From a virus, in IMG/VR virus record IMGVR_UViG_3300009027_000049, positions 1 to 20,204 of that record: DNA of 20,204 bases, one strand, 5' to 3'. How positions within the stretch are numbered: the stretch's first letter is position 1; the number at the start of each line of letters is the position of its first letter. Position numbers and translations under genes: made by a program. Positions 11,747 to 19,885 of the stretch are shown here, one piece after another. The notes below the pieces were generated by a model. That model was given only the letters and a program-made list of their open reading frames with translations, was not told the DNA's origin and ran no database searches.

Positions 11747-14700
11747 TTAGTTTCCTTCTAATTCAGCTATACGCGCTTCAAGAGCGTCATTTTTTGCCGA
11801 CAATTCCTGTACGGCTTTCACAAGAATTGGATAACTGCGTAAGTAATCCGCTTCCAACTTCTCTGGGTTGTCCCACTTCACTAATCGTGTGCGTGAGGTA
11901 GACGAATGGTCTAATTCAACGTCATACAAATCTTGCGCAATGAAGCCCATGTCTGGCGTTGCGCCTAACGACCCATCACGGCGGTTCCAAGTAAACTGGA
12001 CGGGGCGCATGTCTTTAATGAAGTCTAAGCCATACGGCAAATCCTCAATCGCAGTTTTGTCGCGCTCATCTGACAGACTGCTAATTGTCTGCACATTGCA
12101 GCGGAGGGATGTGATGTCATTATCACCAAGCGTAATTTCGTTTGTTGCGGTTCCGCTTGATGGTACTGCTTGAAAGCCGATACAAGTTAGATTTGTTCCA
12201 GTTGTAACTGCGTAAGTATTTCCTGTGTCTTGATAATAGCCTGCATTGTGACCCACAAGAGTATTGTAATCTCCTGTGGTCAAAATTTGCCCTGCGGTTC
12301 CCCCGATTGCACAGTTTCCAATTCCCTCTGTAACGGCTTCTAAAGCACTAGCGCCAACGGCATTGTTATTTGCACCTGAAGTGAGAGAATATAACGATTT
12401 TCGCCCCAAGCCATTGTTAAAACTTCCCGTTCCGCCGTTAAAACCAGACTGATTACCTACAAAGCTATTATGATCCCCACCATCTAAGTCGTATCCAGCT
12501 TGACTACCAACGCAAGTATTGTAATCAGAACCAGCAATTGCACTTCCCATTGCCTGATAGCCGATTGAGACAGAATAATCTGTTGATCTTGCATTGTATC
12601 CAATCCCGATTGCATAACTGTCGTTAGTGTCTATCATATCGGCTGAGTAGCCCATATAAATGTTTCCATCACCGCTGTATATACCATTACCAGCGGCGTA
12701 ACCTACACATATATTATAATATGGGCTACTTGTTGAAGAATTGCCTAATGCATCATATCCTACAGCGACAGCACGGTAATGATTTCCGTCGCTTAGTGAG
12801 TAAGCGCCTACGGCGACACTATTATCGCCGTATGCATCATTACCCGCCGAATATCCTATGTATGTTTGACTGTCTTTTGAGGAAGTATTATAGTTACCAG
12901 CGTAAGCCCCGACGTAAACATTAAAGTCGTTGCTGGTTTGGTATGCCCCAGCTTGATAACCTATTGCGACTTCGGTGTTGCCGCCTAACTTTGCCTGATA
13001 CCCTATTGCGACACCGTTTGTTGTATATGCTGTGCCTGCGGTTTGCGCACCCACATAAGTGCTACCACTGTCAATTGTATCATATAACCCAGCGGCATAT
13101 CCGATTGCAGTTTTATAAGAGCCTGTCGTGTTGCTATATAAAGCCTGATCGCCAATGGCTGTATTGTAAGCGCCTGTTGTTGATTGGAAAAGAGCGTCCT
13201 TTCCAACCGCTGTGTTGCTGCTACCTGTGGTGATCTGCGATCCCGCCCTATAACCCGAACCAGTGTTGAAATCAGCAGTTGTAAGATCATTCAAAGCATC
13301 TTTGCCTATGGCAACATTACCTTGAGCGCCACTTTGAACAACAGCTAAAGAACCCTCTCCAATAGGTATATTGCCGCCATTGGTTGTGTCTGGGTCATCA
13401 GGCCATGCGCTTTGCCAAGACATATCGCCACCACCGCCGCCGCTGACAGTAGTGAAACTTAGGTTGCCGCTGCCATCAGTCGTTAGTACCTGACCACTTG
13501 TGCCATCTGCGCTGTAGACAGCTACGGTGCCTGTTTTATCTGGAAGTGTGATGGTACGATCTGCTGTAGGGTCAGTAACGGTTAAAACGGTTTCGTTGGC
13601 ATCAGCAGTGGAACCTTCAAAGGTTATCTCACCATTAACGGTTACGTCAGTAAGGAACGCTGTTGTGTATGATACGATAGTATCCGCATAAACAGCGCCC
13701 CAATGAGTGCTGTAAGTACCTAGGGAATAAACACCATCAGTTACTGGAACAATATCTTTAGCATATGTTACGGTTGCGGATAGATCAGCGTCTACGCTGT
13801 TAAAGCTTACATCTGCGCCCTCTAACGCAACGGTTCCAGACGCATCAGGCAGGGTAATGGTGCGGTCACCTGTTGGGTCCCCTACGGTTAGTGTGGTTTC
13901 AAAGGCATCGTCAGTCGCACCCTCAAAAATAATGTTGTCGCTAATAATAGGAGCATCTAGTGTTTTATTAGAAAGGGTTTGTGCAACGTCTGTATATGCT
14001 ACATAGCCACCAGTTGCGTCAAAAACCGTTAAGGTATTTGACGATAATGTATCTGTTAAAAGAGTATGTGAAAAACCACTATTTGTAAGTGCTATGTTGT
14101 TAGGTGCATCTAATCCACCTGTCGCAGTAATCTTACCGGTTACGTCTAGTGTTCCAAAAGTTTCTACATTTTGAAAATAAGCAGTTTTACCTGCACCTGA
14201 CGCAACAATGTCCCCAACATAAAGAGCAGCCCATCTATCACTATTACTGCCCAAGTAGTCATTCGCACTTGCAGGATAAATGTCATTTGCAGTTGTAACA
14301 GCCTTTGCTAAATCAGCGTCTACGCTATTAAATGTAACATCCGCAGTTGTCGCAACATCCTGACCAATAGAAAACTCTGTGCCTGTCTGCGTAATGCCTG
14401 TACCAGCCGTGTATACCGCTGTTGCCGCAACCTGCGTAAATGTGATGTTTGTTGTGCCAAAGGTGATTTCACCCTCTGTATTCATCACATAAAGCTCACC
14501 AGCGCCCTCTGTACCTTCTAAGACAAAGAACGCATCACCTTGGCCCAAGGCATCTGGATCAGAAGCGCCATAGCTATCCGCATCAGTTGCGCGAGTTAAC
14601 ACCCAGTTTGTGCTTGCGCTGCCAACTGTTGTAACTGTGTAGATACCGTTTTGTGTTGCGTCTGTTTGTTCATACAGCAATACGCGGTCATTCAGCGACA

Positions 14701-15349
14701 ACGCTACGCCATCAATCGTAATGGCTTCCTGTGTGCTGTTATTTGTGAGCGTAGCACCTACGCCACTTGTGCCATTGTCATACGTTGCTGATAAGTTACC
14801 CTCACGCTCAACACGAACTGGATCATGGTAGTGCAAACCTGCCGCTGCAATAGTATCTACATACTCTTTCGTAGCTGCTCCTAGTGCCGCTGTGGGATCG
14901 GCATTCAAGACAAGATTGCCTGTCATTGTGCCGCCAGTTTTCATCAATGCACCAGCCGCAGTGACGTTCGTGGTGTCCGTTACATCAGCACTCGCCTCAA
15001 TACCGTCTAGTTTGGTTTTATCGCCATCCGCAAATGCACCCTCTGATGGTGGCTGCTGTACATCCTCTGCCGCCGCTGTAACAAAAACAATCGCTTCACC
15101 TGATAGGCTTAGAAGCGATCCAGTAGAACTTTCAGTAAGTGTGCGAGATAGCGTTGTGCCTGACGCGGTATATGTACCTGTGCCAATCTCCCATGCGCCA
15201 TCTTCTTCAATCGTGTAGCGAACTGTGTCGCCATCGCTAATCCCAGCAGAGCTAAAGGTTTGATAACCATCCTCTGCCGAACCTAGCGTGATTGTGCCAG
15301 TGCCAGTTGTAGCTGTTGCGACTTTAACGCGATTGGCGAGAGTAACCAT
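11747..15349 (-). CDS. Tail fibre with adhesin-head-like repeats and S74 chaperone domain
   Basis: A 1200-aa fibre, the largest gene here. Residues 1-95 form a beta domain typical of marine phage fibres ([36 protein letters not shown]). About 105-185 hold [25 protein letters not shown] and AATKEYVDT, followed by LHYHDP and [20 protein letters not shown]. Twice, FNSVDADL and a block like [18 protein letters not shown] recur between 330 and 620. After a GGGGG hinge near 641, about 660-1070 consist of many short repeats of the kind [20 protein letters not shown], like the heads of YadA-type adhesins. From 1093, [12 protein letters not shown] starts a peptidase S74 chaperone domain with the conserved Ser-Asp and Lys, ending in a coiled coil ([20 protein letters not shown]). 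In known fibres this domain trimerises the fibre and then cuts itself off before that Ser. The TAGGTG ahead of the ATG includes the upstream stop. Confidence 0.85.
12140..13372 (-). repeat. Region encoding YadA-head-like repeats of the fibre
   Basis: This stretch encodes roughly residues 660-1070 of the fibre, a series of short degenerate units built around (A/V)xIGYxAG or NTAVGxxAL, each about 13-24 residues. The pattern resembles the left-handed parallel beta-roll of trimeric autotransporter adhesin heads. Units vary too much to be recent copies. Confidence 0.65.
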
Positions 15350-15740: not shown

Positions 15741-16355
15741 GAATGTATTAACTTGCATGCGCAAGCCTGAGCCGCCAAACTTGGCCTTTTCATTGTTACT
15801 ATTAATACCATCAATGGCTGCTTGGTACAACGATGCCCATACACCTGTTCGCTGGTCATCAACTAAATAAGGCGCTGAGTGCATCAATGCACCATACAAA
15901 TATGCATCAGGGAAGTATTGCAAAATCCAGTTAGACGTTGCGCTGTCGCTAAGCGGCGTTGTGCGTGCGTAATAATAAAGCTCACCTGTGTATGTGCTGT
16001 CTGGCGTAGGCCAAACTTCAAGCTGACCTGCAATCACAGAGTAATACTTTGGCCTGCCTTTCGTATCCGCGCCACCTCTACGATAAGACTGAAGCGCTAA
16101 TGGCGTAACTAGCTCAATAGGACGCTCATCTACATCTAGGTGAAAGCGCACAGCTTCCATAAAACCATCGGGTAGCTGTGTGTAGCGCGCATCAATGCTT
16201 GCCGTGCTGCGCTCTTCCATACGCCAGTGGCGCACTTTGCGATCCATGTCAGCCTCTGCAAGACTGATGAAATCAGGAATAACACTCGTAAGATCATCGC
16301 GGTTCAGCCAGTTGGCGATTGCGGTCTTTAGTTCTGCGTAGGTTGTAATAGCCAT
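15738..16355 (-). CDS. Head-tail adaptor-like protein
   Basis: A 205-aa protein from the ATG at 16355; a GTG two codons earlier is possible, but the ATG makes the TAATG overlap used elsewhere in this operon. The start AITTYAELKTAIANWLNRDD, then IPDFISLAEADMDRKVRHW, RYTQLPDGFMEAVRFHLD and, near the end, PDAYLYGALMHSAPYL, is the pattern of the adaptor proteins (SU10-type, related in role to T7 gp11). These form the ring joining the portal to the nozzle and fibres. In those phages this ring closes the filled head and holds the tail fibres. The assignment is by motif memory and gene context. The small size, helical ends and central beta section agree. Confidence 0.7.
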   Translation of the reverse strand: MAITTYAELKTAIANWLNRDDLTSVIPDFISLAEADMDRKVRHWRMEERSTASIDARYTQLPDGFMEAVRFHLDVDERPIELVTPLALQSYRRGGADTKGRPKYYSVIAGQLEVWPTPDSTYTGELYYYARTTPLSDSATSNWILQYFPDAYLYGALMHSAPYLVDDQRTGVWASLYQAAIDGINSNNEKAKFGGSGLRMQVNTF

Positions 16356-16615
16356 TACCACTTAACCTTATCTGCCCAATATGCGGCGCTCATCTTGCCC
16401 TTGGCAATGTTTTTAGCGTGCCTTGCTTTAAATGACTTAGCACGCTTTGTCATAGTCTTATCGCCCGTCTTGCCCTGCTGACCAAAGCGAATTGTTTTAA
16501 CCTTATCGCCCTCTTTAGCCACAACTACGTGTGACTTGGTTTTATGGCTTGGAGTACGCTTGGGTTTATTATAACCCGATACTCCAGCGCGGGCGAGGCG
16601 GGGGTCTTTAGGCAT
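16355..16615 (-). CDS. Small strongly basic conserved phage protein
   Basis: An 86-aa protein, very rich in Lys, Arg and His: MPKDPRLARAGVSGYNKPKR, then HVVVAKEGDKVKTIRFGQQG and ARHAKNIAKGKMSAAYWADK, ending VKW. From memory, this protein and its IRFGQQG and KMSAAYWADKVKW blocks are widespread in marine cyanophages and pelagiphages, with no experimental function known to me. The charge suggests nucleic-acid contact, and the position between terminase-side genes and the adaptor suggests a role in the virion or packaging. Both points are inference. Its start overlaps the preceding stop as TAATG, and its stop overlaps the next start the same way. Confidence 0.75.
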   Translation of the reverse strand: MPKDPRLARAGVSGYNKPKRTPSHKTKSHVVVAKEGDKVKTIRFGQQGKTGDKTMTKRAKSFKARHAKNIAKGKMSAAYWADKVKW

Positions 16616-17418
16616 TAGTAAAGGCTTCCACCGTTTTGAACATATGTGCTATACACATCCATCAAAGTCTGATTGTCAGCGTTATTAACAAAGTCTGGGT
16701 CAATCTGCCTTAGATCATCAATCATCGACGCATACAAATTTGGACTAAATCCACCAACGCTCGTGCCTCTACCAGAATAAACCATCTCAGGTTGTACTGG
16801 CATACCTACGCTCCCGCGACCAGAATATCTCATCCCAGTCCTGTCATTCATGCCTACATCCCCACGACCAGAATACTGCATGCCGCCTAGTGAACCCTCT
16901 GCTGTGCCTCTGCCAGAATGCTGCATAGCCTCGCGAGGCATACCTAAATTCCCGCGACCAGAGTAGCGCATAGGCCCAACGCCACCAAACGGATCAAGAC
17001 CCATAGCTGCCTCATTAGCAGCTTGAGCAGCAAGCAAACCCTGCGGTGATCCAAGCATGTCTGGGGGTGTAACTGTTGGCCCAGTACCGCCAAACGGGCC
17101 AAGCCCCATAGCAGCTTCCGCATCAGCCTGAGAGGCTTCACGTAAAACTGGCTTGGGCGAGCTATCTCTATCTCTTGAAGATGTGCGTGCGGCAATATCC
17201 TCAACGCGCTGCTGCGCCTCAAGCGGTTTAGCAAAAAGATTACCCAGCATAGACAGCAAGCCACCGCCCTCAAACTTATCCCCAGATGCGCCAGCGCCAC
17301 CACCGTCTAGCATGTCCATCAAGCCAGTAAAGCGCTTGCCTGTGCCATTTCTGCCACCGCCTAACGCATTCAACGCGCCTAAACCAGCGAGTAATCCTAG
17401 TGCTGCTCCTGCTTTCAT
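16615..17418 (-). CDS. Repeat-bearing virion-type protein with DGGGAGASGD and YSGRG motifs
   Basis: A 267-aa protein of unknown function. Residues 1-22 are hydrophobic and Gly/Ala/Leu-rich (GAALGLLAGLGALNALGGG). Residues 30-47 carry FTGLMDMLDGGGAGASGD, shared with the virion protein encoded at 5675-6298. The middle has two copies of EAAMGL(G/D)PFGG (101 and 136). Residues 150-218 hold five YSGRG-type repeats (RYSGRG, QHSGRG, QYSGRG, RYSGRG, VYSGRG), each after Met. The C-terminus (MIDDLRQIDPDFVNNADNQT) looks folded and helical. The shared motif and low complexity suggest a virion or ejected protein. The ATG lies inside the stop of the 40-aa gene upstream (ATGA), with AAGG as a modest ribosome-binding site. 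Confidence 0.6.
   Translation of the reverse strand: MKAGAALGLLAGLGALNALGGGRNGTGKRFTGLMDMLDGGGAGASGDKFEGGGLLSMLGNLFAKPLEAQQRVEDIAARTSSRDRDSSPKPVLREASQADAEAAMGLGPFGGTGPTVTPPDMLGSPQGLLAAQAANEAAMGLDPFGGVGPMRYSGRGNLGMPREAMQHSGRGTAEGSLGGMQYSGRGDVGMNDRTGMRYSGRGSVGMPVQPEMVYSGRGTSVGGFSPNLYASMIDDLRQIDPDFVNNADNQTLMDVYSTYVQNGGSLY
16765..16971 (-). repeat. Five YSGRG coding repeats
   Basis: Five units encoding (R/Q/V)(Y/H)SGRG, 13-18 residues apart, within the 267-aa gene. At DNA level they share a core like CGACCAGAATA on the plus strand, with some synonymous change, which shows diverged tandem duplication. Confidence 0.7.
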
Positions 17419-17537
17419 TTCTTTTTACCTTTTTTGCTTTTGCTCAGCTTTTTCAAGTCTGCGCCAGTAATTTTCTTGCGTGGTGGAGCCACTGCGGCTA
17501 ACTTTTTTTGCTTTGGGCTATATTTAGAATACGGCAT
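17415..17537 (-). CDS. 40-aa lysine-rich small protein
   Basis: A short open frame of 40 aa, MPYSKYSPKQKKLAAVAPPR followed by KKITGADLKKLSKSKKGKKK. The KYSPKQKKLA and KITGADLKKL parts look like a small conserved protein I remember from marine phages, so I take it as real. Its start overlaps the stop of the 63-aa gene (TAATG) and its TGA overlaps the start of the 267-aa gene (ATGA). This double linkage also supports it. Thirteen of 40 residues are Lys, suggesting nucleic-acid binding (inference). The run of seven A bases at codons 10-12 forms the heptamer A AAA AAG, a classic minus-one slip site, but the product it would give ends 26 codons later and looks like nothing known. Confidence 0.65.
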   Translation of the reverse strand: MPYSKYSPKQKKLAAVAPPRKKITGADLKKLSKSKKGKKK

Positions 17538-17728
17538 TAGGACTTCACCTGCTTTTCCCATTCATAACACTTAACCTGCTTGATTGTATACGTTGGATAT
17601 TTCATCTGCAAAGATGGAACTCCGTTCTGCATAAAATCAGCAATGCATTCATTCTCATCGACATACGCAGGGCCGCCGACTGCAAAGCAGTAATTTTGAG
17701 CGCACAAGAGAACAAACGCGGTAAACAT
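17537..17728 (-). CDS. 63-aa putative exported protein
   Basis: Residues 1-16 (MFTAFVLLCAQNYCFA) form a hydrophobic segment ending in a signal-peptidase-like site before VGG, although the usual basic residue after Met is missing. The mature part has two Cys (28 and 54) that could form one disulfide, within ENECIADFMQNGVPSLQM and TYTIKQVKCYEWEK. No family recognised. It is probably sent to the periplasm or anchored in the inner membrane. It begins four bases after the 11-aa frame's stop and ends in TAATG with the 40-aa gene. A role in envelope change during infection is possible but not shown. Confidence 0.6.
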   Translation of the reverse strand: MFTAFVLLCAQNYCFAVGGPAYVDENECIADFMQNGVPSLQMKYPTYTIKQVKCYEWEKQVKS

Positions 17729-17732
17729 TACA

Positions 17733-17768
17733 TCACTTCTTTACTTTCTTCTTAGCAGCTTTAGCCAT
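17733..17768 (-). CDS. 11-aa lysine-rich micro-frame
   Basis: ATG follows directly on the stop of the 26-aa gene (TAAATG) and the frame encodes MAKAAKKKVKK, then TGA. It is too short for statistics. In favour are the exact junction, the Lys-rich composition like the neighbouring 40-aa and 86-aa proteins, and the otherwise complete use of this cassette for coding. It may simply be a translational bridge that carries ribosomes to the 63-aa gene. Confidence 0.3.
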   Translation of the reverse strand: MAKAAKKKVKK

Positions 17769-17849
17769 TTACTTGCCATACTTCTTTTTCATGCACATAC
17801 CTGCACGCTTACACGCTGCGGGTGTGGGGCAACCTTTACATGGTTTCAT
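17769..17849 (-). CDS. 26-aa four-cysteine microprotein
   Basis: Encodes MKPCKGCPTPAACKRAGMCM followed by KKKYGK. Cysteines at 4, 7, 13 and 19 (C-x2-C-x5-C-x5-C) with basic residues between and after suggest a tiny zinc-binding or disulfide-held fold. The start is preceded by AAAGGAGTTGGCT, one of the best Shine-Dalgarno sequences in the window, in the 31-base gap after the large terminase gene. A ribosome-binding site this good before so short a frame argues that it is translated. The next micro-frame begins at once (TAAATG). I recall similar CxxC microproteins in marine phage genomes but not a function. Confidence 0.6.
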   Translation of the reverse strand: MKPCKGCPTPAACKRAGMCMKKKYGK

Positions 17850-17880
17850 AGCCAACTCCTTTTGCTGCAAACGTATCACA

Positions 17881-19287
17881 TTACGCTATTCCACGCAAAT
17901 TCCTTCTAATTTCGCCACGCCAGCTAGAAAACGACCCAGATAACGCCGTTGCAGCATCCGAAGCCATCGTCAAACAAAGCGCATCAGCCAAGTCAGGAGA
18001 GGCTAAGCCACGCTTGCGCATCTCATCCTTACTCTCAGCTTTCATCTTTCCTGAACTGGTAAAGCTATAGCGAATGCTGGTTAGCTCTGCGATAAGCTGG
18101 TCATTCTTCGGCAGCTTGCAAGAACGATCCTCAAGCCAACCCTTCGTCTTAAACCAAAGCTCGCTCCGCAGATTAAGATAGGTATCGCCCATAGACGGGC
18201 TTTCAGCAACATTCACGCCGCGCACAGGCAGGCCAATCTCACGCAGGCGGTCCACCACACCTGAGCCTACGCCAATGCTATCGACAAGAATTTGCGTTGG
18301 CTGTCTGCTAGGCGGTAACGCCTCATACTCAGCAACAACCCTACCCACAGTCTGCATCAAGTCCAACCCAGACCAAGCCCTAAGCTCAGTCACAATCGGA
18401 CCCTGACGCTTACACAGCGCAGTCTTATCCTGCCCAAAGCGCGCTACGTCCAGACCCCAGACCGCCTTGGTATCCTCATCAATCTGCACATCGCGGTGCG
18501 TGGCATTCTCCACAAGATGAAACGGGATAATCGTGTCATCGTCAGCAAGCGGAAACTCACCCAGCACACGAATGCGAAACGCATTGCTCTCCTCGCCATA
18601 CCTGAGCCGCATCTCATCGACAAACTCATCGCTCACCAGAGGGCTATCCACGCATGACCAACGGCGTGTCCACCAGCTATCCGCCATGCGCGTCTGACTT
18701 TCGAAAAACGTACCACTGCTCCGCGTGGGGTTGCTCAACATAATCGTCGTCGCGTTATGACCCGACATAGAGCCAGCCGCAGCCTCAAATACCTGCTCAG
18801 GTACACCAGAGGCTTCATCTACAACGAGCATAACATGCTCAGAGTGAACCCCAGCCAGCGCTTCAGGCGTTTCTGCGCGTGACGTTCTAGCCGATATAAA
18901 CATCTCTGCAGGCGCAGAAGTGTGCTCAACGCGATCCGATTTAACGTTAAGTATGCTCTGCAACCCTTCAGGCAACTCGTTTATCCAGCGCTTTAGCTCT
19001 GCAAATAAGGCATCAAAAAGCTGACTGCTGGTGGGCGCAGTTACAACAACTTTATTTGGGTAATGCATCAAAAAATACCATAGCATTGCCCATGATGCTG
19101 CTGTAGACTTACCAGTACCATGACCCGACCGAATGCTAATCTTGCGTTCGCCAGACGCAATCGCTTCCAGAAATTCTGCCTGATACGGCAATGGCTCTAC
19201 GCCAAGCACCTCTTGCACAAATAAAGCAGGCTTCTTGCCGTACCGCTCAACAAAGTCCAGCATTGCGCTGTGATTGTCGTCACTCAT
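17881..19287 (-). CDS. terL: Terminase large subunit
   Basis: A 468-aa packaging motor that translocates DNA into the prohead with ATP and cuts the concatemer. Numbered from the ATG at 19287, the ATPase part has Walker A SGHGTGKST at 54-62, Walker B MLVVDE at 153-158 with the catalytic Glu, and a coupling motif SNPTRSSG near 185-192. The RNase H-like nuclease part has the acidic residues expected for metal binding: LDVARFGQDKT (Asp 280), ILVDSIGVG (Asp 336) and SPDLADAL (Asp 432/435). Length is normal for the family. A TTG two codons earlier is possible, but AAGGTGA lies at the right distance from the ATG and much too close to the TTG. The start overlaps the small subunit's end by eight bases (ATGAGTGA). 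Confidence 0.95.
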   Translation of the reverse strand: MSDDNHSAMLDFVERYGKKPALFVQEVLGVEPLPYQAEFLEAIASGERKISIRSGHGTGKSTAASWAMLWYFLMHYPNKVVVTAPTSSQLFDALFAELKRWINELPEGLQSILNVKSDRVEHTSAPAEMFISARTSRAETPEALAGVHSEHVMLVVDEASGVPEQVFEAAAGSMSGHNATTIMLSNPTRSSGTFFESQTRMADSWWTRRWSCVDSPLVSDEFVDEMRLRYGEESNAFRIRVLGEFPLADDDTIIPFHLVENATHRDVQIDEDTKAVWGLDVARFGQDKTALCKRQGPIVTELRAWSGLDLMQTVGRVVAEYEALPPSRQPTQILVDSIGVGSGVVDRLREIGLPVRGVNVAESPSMGDTYLNLRSELWFKTKGWLEDRSCKLPKNDQLIAELTSIRYSFTSSGKMKAESKDEMRKRGLASPDLADALCLTMASDAATALSGSFSSWRGEIRRNLRGIA

Positions 19288-19777
19288 GGTCAATCACCTT
19301 GGCTTTCCGCAGCGCATCCAAATGCAAGTCACCAATGTTGATCTGAATGTTCTGCTGATTGCCGCTACCATAGCGCGCCTTGTTAAAACTGGCAGCAATA
19401 AAGTTGCGCTGGTGGGCTAAGCCCTTAGCAATGCCGATATCAACCTGACTGACATACTGCAGGTTTTTATCTACAGCTTCATTATCAGGATTGCGTGCAG
19501 CCGCCTTCTCATAAGCACGCTCTTCCTTCAACTCAACAAGCTCCTGAAGGGCAAGAGCAGCCTGCACATCAGCAACCTCAGCTTCAACCTCTTTTATCGC
19601 CTTGCCATACTCTTCGTTTTTCATCAGGTTGCGCTGCAAATAACCACGATCCAACCCAAGCTCTTTTGCAATCATTGGAATAGTTTTACCCGAAAGCAAT
19701 TCCTGCTGCAAAGCTTCAGGGCCACCCCTTCTATCAAGGGCTGCAAGAGCAGCTTTCAACTTAGGCTTACCAGCCAT
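19280..19777 (-). CDS. terS: Terminase small subunit
   Basis: A 165-aa protein just before the large terminase. The N-terminal part has a helix-turn-helix-like stretch (GKTIPMIAKELGLDRGYLQR, about residues 30-49) after a helical LKAALAALDRRGG. A long helical middle follows (EYGKAIKEVEAEVADVQAAL, then ELVELKEERAYEKAA), as in the oligomerisation part of small terminases, and a C-terminal part (GNQQNIQINIGDLHLDALRK) that would contact the large subunit. It recognises the packaging start site and regulates the motor. The start is fixed by TTAGGAGTTATGTATGG, with AGGAG six bases upstream. It is the first gene after the control region at 19778-20204. Confidence 0.88.
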   Translation of the reverse strand: MAGKPKLKAALAALDRRGGPEALQQELLSGKTIPMIAKELGLDRGYLQRNLMKNEEYGKAIKEVEAEVADVQAALALQELVELKEERAYEKAAARNPDNEAVDKNLQYVSQVDIGIAKGLAHQRNFIAASFNKARYGSGNQQNIQINIGDLHLDALRKAKVIDHE

Positions 19778-19812
19778 ACATAACTCCTAAATTAGCCTCG
19801 CGTGTACTGTAC

Positions 19813-19885
19813 TAATACTAATAATAATACCTATAGGTATTTTATTATTATTATTAGTCCCAGCACTGTACCGATATTAGTATTA
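19813..19885. repeat. Nested AT-rich inverted repeats
   Basis: An 11-base perfect inverted pair, TAATACTAATA (19813-19823) and TATTAGTATTA (19875-19885), encloses a 16-base perfect palindrome AATACCTATAGGTATT (19826-19841). A third pair, ACTAATAAT (19817-19825) with ATTATTAGT (19850-19858), competes with the outer one. The very low GC suggests an easily melted element rather than an intrinsic terminator; there is no GC-rich stem. Confidence 0.65.

Follow-up and report, generated by a model that had tools for sequence, protein, structure and literature searches.

Organisation of the locus

The window analysed here is a 20.2-kb virus record in which a terS-like gene, the large terminase gene (terL), a group of microgenes, a 267-aa gene and an 86-aa gene follow one another on the minus strand. 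Past the 86-aa gene the same strand carries an SU10-type adaptor, a head protein, a long S74 fibre and further virion genes, with the portal gene at the far end. The fibre (11747-15349) comprises 1200 aa and has the S74 intramolecular chaperone domain at its end. The terL gene (17881..19293, minus strand), which lies directly upstream of the microgenes, encodes 470 aa from a TTG start (an ATG is present at 19287), and its product matches the terminase large subunit family phrog_2 (E 5.5e-43). Upstream of the terS-like gene is a long AT-rich inverted repeat (19804-19871; 26-nt arms 81% complementary, inner arms of 17 nt 94%), and ATTGTACTG repeats occur further out, at ~20089 and ~20169.

Frames of 26, 11, 63 and 40 aa tile positions 17849-17415 of the minus strand, between terL and the 267-aa gene. 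Their junctions are, in order, an abutting TAA/ATG, TGA-TGTA-ATG, TAATG and ATGA, the last being an overlap between the 40-aa gene and the 267-aa gene. An initial annotation of this DNA had described the chain of four frames with these junctions and a good Shine-Dalgarno before the first of them, and both are borne out: AGGAG is present 5' of the first array ATG (AAAAGGAGTTGGCTATG), in a leader (AAAAGGAG; 17855..17868, minus strand) that is conserved in close relatives. The first gene of the array (17769..17849, minus strand) encodes a 26-aa peptide with the spacing C-x2-C-x5-C-x5-C and a net charge of +8, here called Cys4. After the 11-aa frame come the 63-aa EXP microgene (17537..17728, minus strand; pI 5.1), with a predicted beta-beta-alpha-beta domain, and the 40-aa PYSK microgene (MPYSKYSPKQKKLAAVAPPRKKITGADLKKL...; 17415..17537, minus strand; net +14), with two predicted short helices. 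Promoter-like sites in the array occur at chance level, RNA elements and terminators were sought in the array with no Rfam match, and a PADLOC search returned no match.

Directly downstream, the 267-aa gene (16615..17418, minus strand) gave no match in PHROG and Pfam searches. Five [YH]SGRG copies (MRYSGRG, MQHSGRG, MQYSGRG, MRYSGRG, MVYSGRG) are found in the C-terminal half of its product. The 86-aa gene (16355..16615, minus strand) encodes a basic protein (net +19) of the family phrog_7595 (E 4.3e-36); two matches of this gene to L24 proteins, found by sequence in the PDB, had E values of 0.68-0.97 and were disregarded.

Coding status of the microgenes

Proteins this short sit at or near the usual limits of gene calling. 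Open frames of such length are common, and the array could be a set of chance frames in a spacer. Against this, the chained ATG frames span 432 of the 466 nt between terL and the 267-aa gene, an extent equalled by 1 of 5000 dinucleotide shuffles, and four chained frames covering at least 300 nt were seen in 5 of 5000. When the space after terL was tiled in 80 relatives from a TerL scan (86-100% TerL identity), the microgene frames were found to be kept next to terL.

Selection on the frames points the same way. In sets of fixed-length sequences, the 63-aa gene has a pN/pS of 0.11 (26 sequences; like all such values here pooled pairwise and not tree-corrected), as against 2.4 and 2.6 in the shifted frames, and its variable sites number 9, 9 and 36 by codon position. 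The 40-aa gene gives 0.17 against 1.7 and 1.8 (variable sites 9, 9 and 32) and the Cys4 core 0.27 against 1.5 and 2.3. Across these sets the shifted frames range from 1.5 to 3.2 and nearly all contain stops, and pooled over all relatives each module kind has a pN/pS of 0.11-0.41. The ratio is thus far below 1 in the true frame only, and the modules have hundreds of relatives. By these comparisons, the frames of 26, 63 and 40 aa encode proteins and evolve under purifying selection, a claim made with high confidence. As an account of the array, chance frames have next to no probability, and they stand only for the 11-aa frame as a functional gene.

The initial annotation had counted four micro-genes, of which the 26-, 63- and 40-aa genes stand and the 11-aa frame does not (see below). 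It had also proposed to look for a conserved order next to terL with a low selection ratio, and for a lack of conservation, or for frameshifts and stops in close relatives with no purifying selection, as a contrary sign; the place is kept, the ratio is low for these three genes, and the contrary sign was not found for three of the four frames. In the 40-aa gene an in-frame upstream ATG exists (48 aa, 17561); the start giving 40 aa is likelier, because the same gene elsewhere begins directly at MP[YF] after other modules.

Decayed members of the array

Relatives have a 50-58-aa GLY gene next after Cys4; it ends in ...KTAKKKVKK, with the 3' DNA ...GCTAAGAAGAAAGTAAAGAAGTGATGTAATG. In the window the matching GLY 3' end follows ATGGCTAAAGCT. 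The 3' end of the 11-aa frame (MAKAAKKKVKK; 17733..17768, minus strand) is almost identical to the GLY 3' end in relatives, and the same TGATGTAATG comes after it. Since this 3' end is present and the body of the gene is absent, ~120 nt of GLY are gone from the window, and by this alignment the 11-aa frame is a deletion remnant (a 3' stub) of the 51-aa GLY microgene (GLYANIHAKRKRI...) that close relatives carry whole. That 51-aa gene matches phrog_16028 (E 6.7e-27, profile positions 3-49 of 50), for which the stub itself is too short to be scored.

The stub was found only in the window and in two relatives (L001 and L003). Copies of the 40-aa gene are shortened in L013 and broken in L002. Single array members may therefore decay, with assembly error as an alternative for the decayed copies.

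Exchange of microgenes among relatives

What the initial annotation missed is that the array is modular, its genes being exchanged one by one across marine phages, as comparison of related loci indicates with a confidence equal to that for coding. Modules were scored by motif in 70 loci with a related TerL, and 25 different arrays were found, composed from ~15 kinds of microgene (Cys4, GLY, EXP of 63 aa, PYSK of 40 aa, YARV, WFKEDWRDV, HYFRDG, YSKK, which is phrog_2423, CWKGYR, GTYG and others). The array of the window is, on this scoring, one variant among many. Architectures are unlike in 11% of pairs at 96-100% terL nucleotide identity, in 45% at 92-96% and in more than 90% below 84%.

The exchange can be followed in a pair of loci (L066 and L067) whose terL genes are 96.7% identical over 900 nt. 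Their sequences agree at 93% almost to the end of the Cys4 gene, after which one carries GLY and the other YARV and WFKEDWRDV (DUF5872). They agree again, at 97.8%, across the PYSK gene and the 7 nt on either side of it, and the agreement falls to 79% in the next gene. Such alignments indicate that the microgenes in one slot differ among relatives and that the exchanges are at gene boundaries. The 267-aa gene is, by the same kind of comparison, mosaic too, because its relatives have an N-terminal DMIDGGG...FEGGG core in common and differ in the surroundings.

The YARV and WFKEDWRDV genes, which are separate genes of relatives and are not found in the window array, match the two halves of DUF5872 (PF19197; profile positions 1-39 and 51-91) with 37.0 and 27.9 bits, respectively, at a gathering cut-off of 27.5 bits. 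DUF5872 occurs as two adjacent, coupled microgenes in L026, L040, L043, L057, L059, L061, L067, L070 and L077. One relative (L071) has a 91-aa gene within its array that is related to the 86-aa gene of the window, the two being linked by phrog_7595 (E 6.5e-11 for the 91-aa gene). With its first 70 residues scored, the 91-aa gene reaches 15.7 bits against DUF5754/Tlr6F (PF19058; cut-off 27.4, E 0.016), and the 86-aa gene of the window has no match to DUF5754/Tlr6F in Pfam.

Larger insertions are seen as well. A 148-170-aa gene (MPPCPYAKQAW..., phrog_28122) lies between terL and the array in one branch (L052, L053, L055, L056, L059, L063, L064 and L069), and in another locus ~0.6 kb of extra DNA separates terL from an otherwise ordinary array (L072:1877-2525).

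Some of these families have been catalogued before. GLY, YSKK and the 86-aa gene belong by direct sequence membership to phrog_16028, phrog_2423 and phrog_7595, respectively, which are listed singly and without a function. DUF5872 and DUF5754/Tlr6F are small proteins of giant viruses, polinton-like viruses (PLVs) and phages (PMC12085832, PMC4642659, PMC12220804), and Tlr6F is conserved in PLVs, giant viruses and some phages with no function assigned (PMC4642659, PMC12220804). Here DUF5872 is split over two coupled genes, and the link of Tlr6F to the array is a single weak Pfam match (E 0.016).

The seam between modules

The exchange boundaries carry a common seam, typically ...GGTAAGAAGTAATGG. 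Unrelated modules usually end in a short Lys tail encoded ...AAGAAGTA|ATG, so that the stop and start codons of successive genes overlap, with the last codons typically GGT AAG AAG TA|ATG G. The sequence ...AAGAAGTAATG(G) is found at the borders of Cys4, GLY, DUF5872, PYSK, GTYG and S42 modules. Among ~280 junctions, 172 overlap by one base (TAATG type) and 33 by four, and in 27 loci with a terminase unlike that of the window, 22 PYSK genes share 1 nt with the gene before them. Such an overlap is by itself nothing unusual, since 26% of all large-gene pairs in these phages overlap by one base; what is special at the seam is the shared sequence and the repeated exchange there.

The last two Lys codons are AAG in 81-85% of cases, compared with 55% inside genes, which suggests that the constraint on the seam acts on the DNA and not on the peptide alone. 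This bias is partly inherited, as the loci are related to one another. The seam would couple translation of neighbouring genes, and it would also supply a short stretch of homology through which one microgene could be replaced with its neighbours left unbroken.

If selection at the seams acts on DNA and RNA, with purine-rich codons doubling as ribosome-binding tract and recombination homology, the Lys-rich tails might be mainly a by-product of that selection and many of the microgenes short-lived passengers. The preference for AAG at the last two Lys codons, the occurrence of ...AAGAAGTAATG in unrelated modules and the decayed copies (the 11-aa stub, and PYSK shortened in L013 and broken in L002) fit such an account. 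However, purifying selection runs along the whole frames and not the tails alone, Lys and Arg are abundant throughout the proteins, and modules with conserved cores are kept across unrelated phages. We consider this explanation unlikely.

Modular exchange of phage genes is classical. Whole-gene exchange at borders with a short common sequence has been described for phage mosaicism at short conserved boundaries, as in the mycobacteriophages Island3 and Brujita, where two neighbouring genes have alike C-terminal 18 residues (PMC3029335). The arrays differ from this in that many exchanges have taken place in one slot, one microgene of ~20-80 codons is moved at a time, and the seam additionally bears the stop/start overlap. 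In the literature searched, no account was found of basic-microgene arrays exchanged singly at a common seam, nor of a function for the modules, although such absence is not proof. If the seam is read correctly, it is a clear example from nature of mosaic exchange at a common boundary, a mechanism that has long been proposed and is rarely visible, and one that would here lend itself to testing.

Properties of the encoded proteins

All module products except the 63-aa protein have a pI of 9.9-11.4. Every complete array is net positive, from +13 to +81; a fixed total charge per array was considered and rejected, as the charge varies sixfold.

In the Cys4 peptide, C4, C7, P8, C13, R15, G17 and C19 are invariant among 15 aligned relatives, and with them the C-x2-C-x5-C-x5-C spacing; Tyr replaces the last Cys in one locus. 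With its four conserved and regularly spaced cysteines the peptide is zinc-knuckle-like and would form a putative metal site. The PYSK protein is modelled as two short helices (pLDDT 80, pTM 0.31).

In the 63-aa protein, 49 of 63 columns are invariant in 16 sequences. AlphaFold predicts a compact beta-beta-alpha-beta domain, the best model having a pLDDT of 86 and the others 45-81. The initial annotation had taken this protein to be exported, and together with the basic peptides it might then alter the host envelope. Its chain does open with a short hydrophobic run (MFTAFVLLCAQ). However, there is no Lys or Arg ahead of this run, the model places it in a beta hairpin of the compact domain as the first strand (pLDDT 86; five models 45-86), and the other products look soluble and basic. 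With no basic N-region and with a beta-beta-alpha-beta domain as its model, the 63-aa protein does not look like an obvious export substrate, although the spread among the models makes this less than proof, and an action on the host envelope is very improbable.

In a fold search with the 63-aa model, the nearest solved folds were common small arrangements only. These include two phage inhibitors, T7 Gp2 (VIA Z 5.1-5.2, Foldseek E 0.27) and phi29 p56 (VIA Z 4.8), for both of which the likeness is at the level of a common arrangement. Among predicted small proteins, the model resembles one of the Celeribacter phage P12053L (E 2e-3) and one of the Roseobacter phage CRP-4 (E 8.5e-3). Other arrays (L182, L183, L191 and L236) are preceded by 59-60-aa proteins such as MWLLFAILIQSDGYAVYPQGPF..., whose layout is similar to that of the 63-aa protein.

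No PHROG or Pfam family match was found for the 26-, 63- and 40-aa proteins; one Pfam match of the window array proteins (E 0.06) lay below the cut-off and was disregarded, and weak PHROG cross-matches to larger head proteins (phrog_220, phrog_3778) were not relied on. Searches of the PDB by sequence with GLY and DUF5872 returned nothing, and the 40-aa protein was without a match in 50,697 phage records. Fusion to a protein of known function gave no hint either, GLY being free-standing in 68 of 70 cases and DUF5872 in 78 of 78.

Distribution and genomic neighbourhood

Members of these families are present in hundreds of contigs of marine viruses, and also in phages in culture that infect Pelagibacter, Prochlorococcus, Synechococcus and Roseobacter. 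IMG/VR holds at least 511 relatives of PYSK, at least 589 of GLY and at least 581 of the WFKEDWRDV module, and 117 of EXP. The genes are nearly always free-standing, at 47-61 aa for GLY and 50-103 aa for WFKEDWRDV, and YARV lies no more than four genes from WFKEDWRDV in 58 of 78 loci. GLY is present in 84 phage records, including phages of Synechococcus, Prochlorococcus, Pelagibacter and Roseobacter.

To characterise the surroundings, the large genes flanking the modules were clustered and 40 representatives compared with PHROGs. About 25 of the 40 are terminase (several families), portal, scaffold, major capsid, head-tail adaptor, neck or other virion genes, a result that is an association and not a test because the clusters were chosen by hand and had no matched background. 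Three are auxiliary metabolic genes (psbA, a ferredoxin-type gene and a 2OG oxygenase), the remainder are without assignment, and replication, lysis or integration genes do not occur among the 40.

Cultured phages give a similar picture. GLY is located between the scaffold and capsid genes in Pelagibacter phages HTVC168P and Eistla and in Synechococcus phages S-SBP1 and S-CBP4, and between the capsid and tail-tube genes in Prochlorococcus phage P-SCSP1d; in Prochlorococcus phage P-SCSP2 a WFKEDWRDV gene lies between scaffold and capsid. There are exceptions: in CRP-4, GLY stands at the end of a gene block beside the ribonucleotide reductase region and not visibly among head genes, in CRP-207 the module lies between a lysozyme gene and terS, and in S-RIP1 it is near psbA. 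In cyanopodoviruses, psbA and a high-light-inducible (hli) gene are found in the same interval. Taken over these genomes, one set of modules keeps reappearing in many marine phages that are not related to one another, and its neighbours are mostly terminase, portal, scaffold, capsid or neck genes.

Possible roles of the array

Since in unrelated phages these modules have terminase, portal, scaffold, capsid and neck genes as their neighbours, a role in packaging or head completion is the best-supported guess; of the roles suggested in the initial annotation this one is retained, and a change of the host envelope is not. We propose that the locus belongs to the late packaging/head operon of a marine tailed phage and that its exchangeable microgenes supply basic accessory products for packaging or head assembly, a proposal whose chances of being right we judge to be about even. 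The microgenes would be co-translated late with their packaging and head neighbours. With the exception of the acidic 63-aa domain, their products would be free-standing, strongly basic peptides (a Cys4 knuckle, short helices and Lys tails). These would probably bind nucleic acid (DNA or RNA) or acidic patches on the packaging and head machinery, and would thereby modulate packaging, the assembly of heads or the condensation of the genome. The 63-aa domain would be carried along in the array as a distinct small protein that binds a partner. If the products do act in packaging or in heads, abundant ocean phages would have a class of accessory proteins for which no assay turned up in the literature searched.

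Strongly basic proteins of a DNA virus are also known from the chloroviruses, whose basic virion proteins bind DNA (PMC3281028). Those were found bound to packaged DNA, whereas the peptides described here are far smaller and are candidates for such binding; a search for a carrier-phage proteome listing them found none. The same paper states that evidence is lacking for any large contribution of basic proteins to the neutralisation of phage DNA (PMC3281028), which, like the wide range of array charge (+13 to +81), speaks against a simple charge-neutralising role. It also counts against a packaging or head role that the capsid of P-SCSP1u has no decoration protein (PMC10575957). Moreover, neighbourhood is weak evidence for function, and psbA, hli and auxiliary metabolic genes lie nearby too.

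The last observation leads to a different reading, in which the array marks a permissive site within a late operon with strong transcription, and the small proteins carried there are late host-takeover cargo directed against host RNA polymerase, nucleases or ribosomes. The content is swapped as cargo would be, and psbA, hli, ferredoxin-like and 2OG oxygenase genes occupy equivalent slots. The 63-aa model moreover resembles the small beta-alpha phage domains T7 Gp2, an RNA polymerase inhibitor (Z 5.2, Foldseek E 0.27), and phi29 p56, a UDG inhibitor (Z 4.8), in size and arrangement. However, these matches (Z ~5) are at the level of a common arrangement, no sequence similarity to either inhibitor was detected, and a late operon is a different place for such a gene. 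The modules recur in phages of cyanobacteria, Pelagibacter and Roseobacter, which makes a host-specific target unlikely, and most flanks are head or packaging genes. Host cargo is the main alternative to a role in packaging or heads, and the less likely of the two.

The proposed role in packaging and head assembly can be extended, more speculatively, to the arrays as a whole. They may form a widespread combinatorial system of marine phages, in which a common stock of ~15 mostly basic microproteins is shuffled as single-gene cassettes and yields phage-specific sets for packaging or genome condensation. The seam would then serve at once as stop/start overlap, ribosome-binding tract and recombination homology. 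We regard this extension as rather improbable.

As to the host, a TerL relative of 78% identity (L242) is on a contig binned as Rhodobacteraceae bacterium Water_Bin34. Together with the presence of the modules in Roseobacter phages, this gives a hint, and not more, of a Rhodobacteraceae host.
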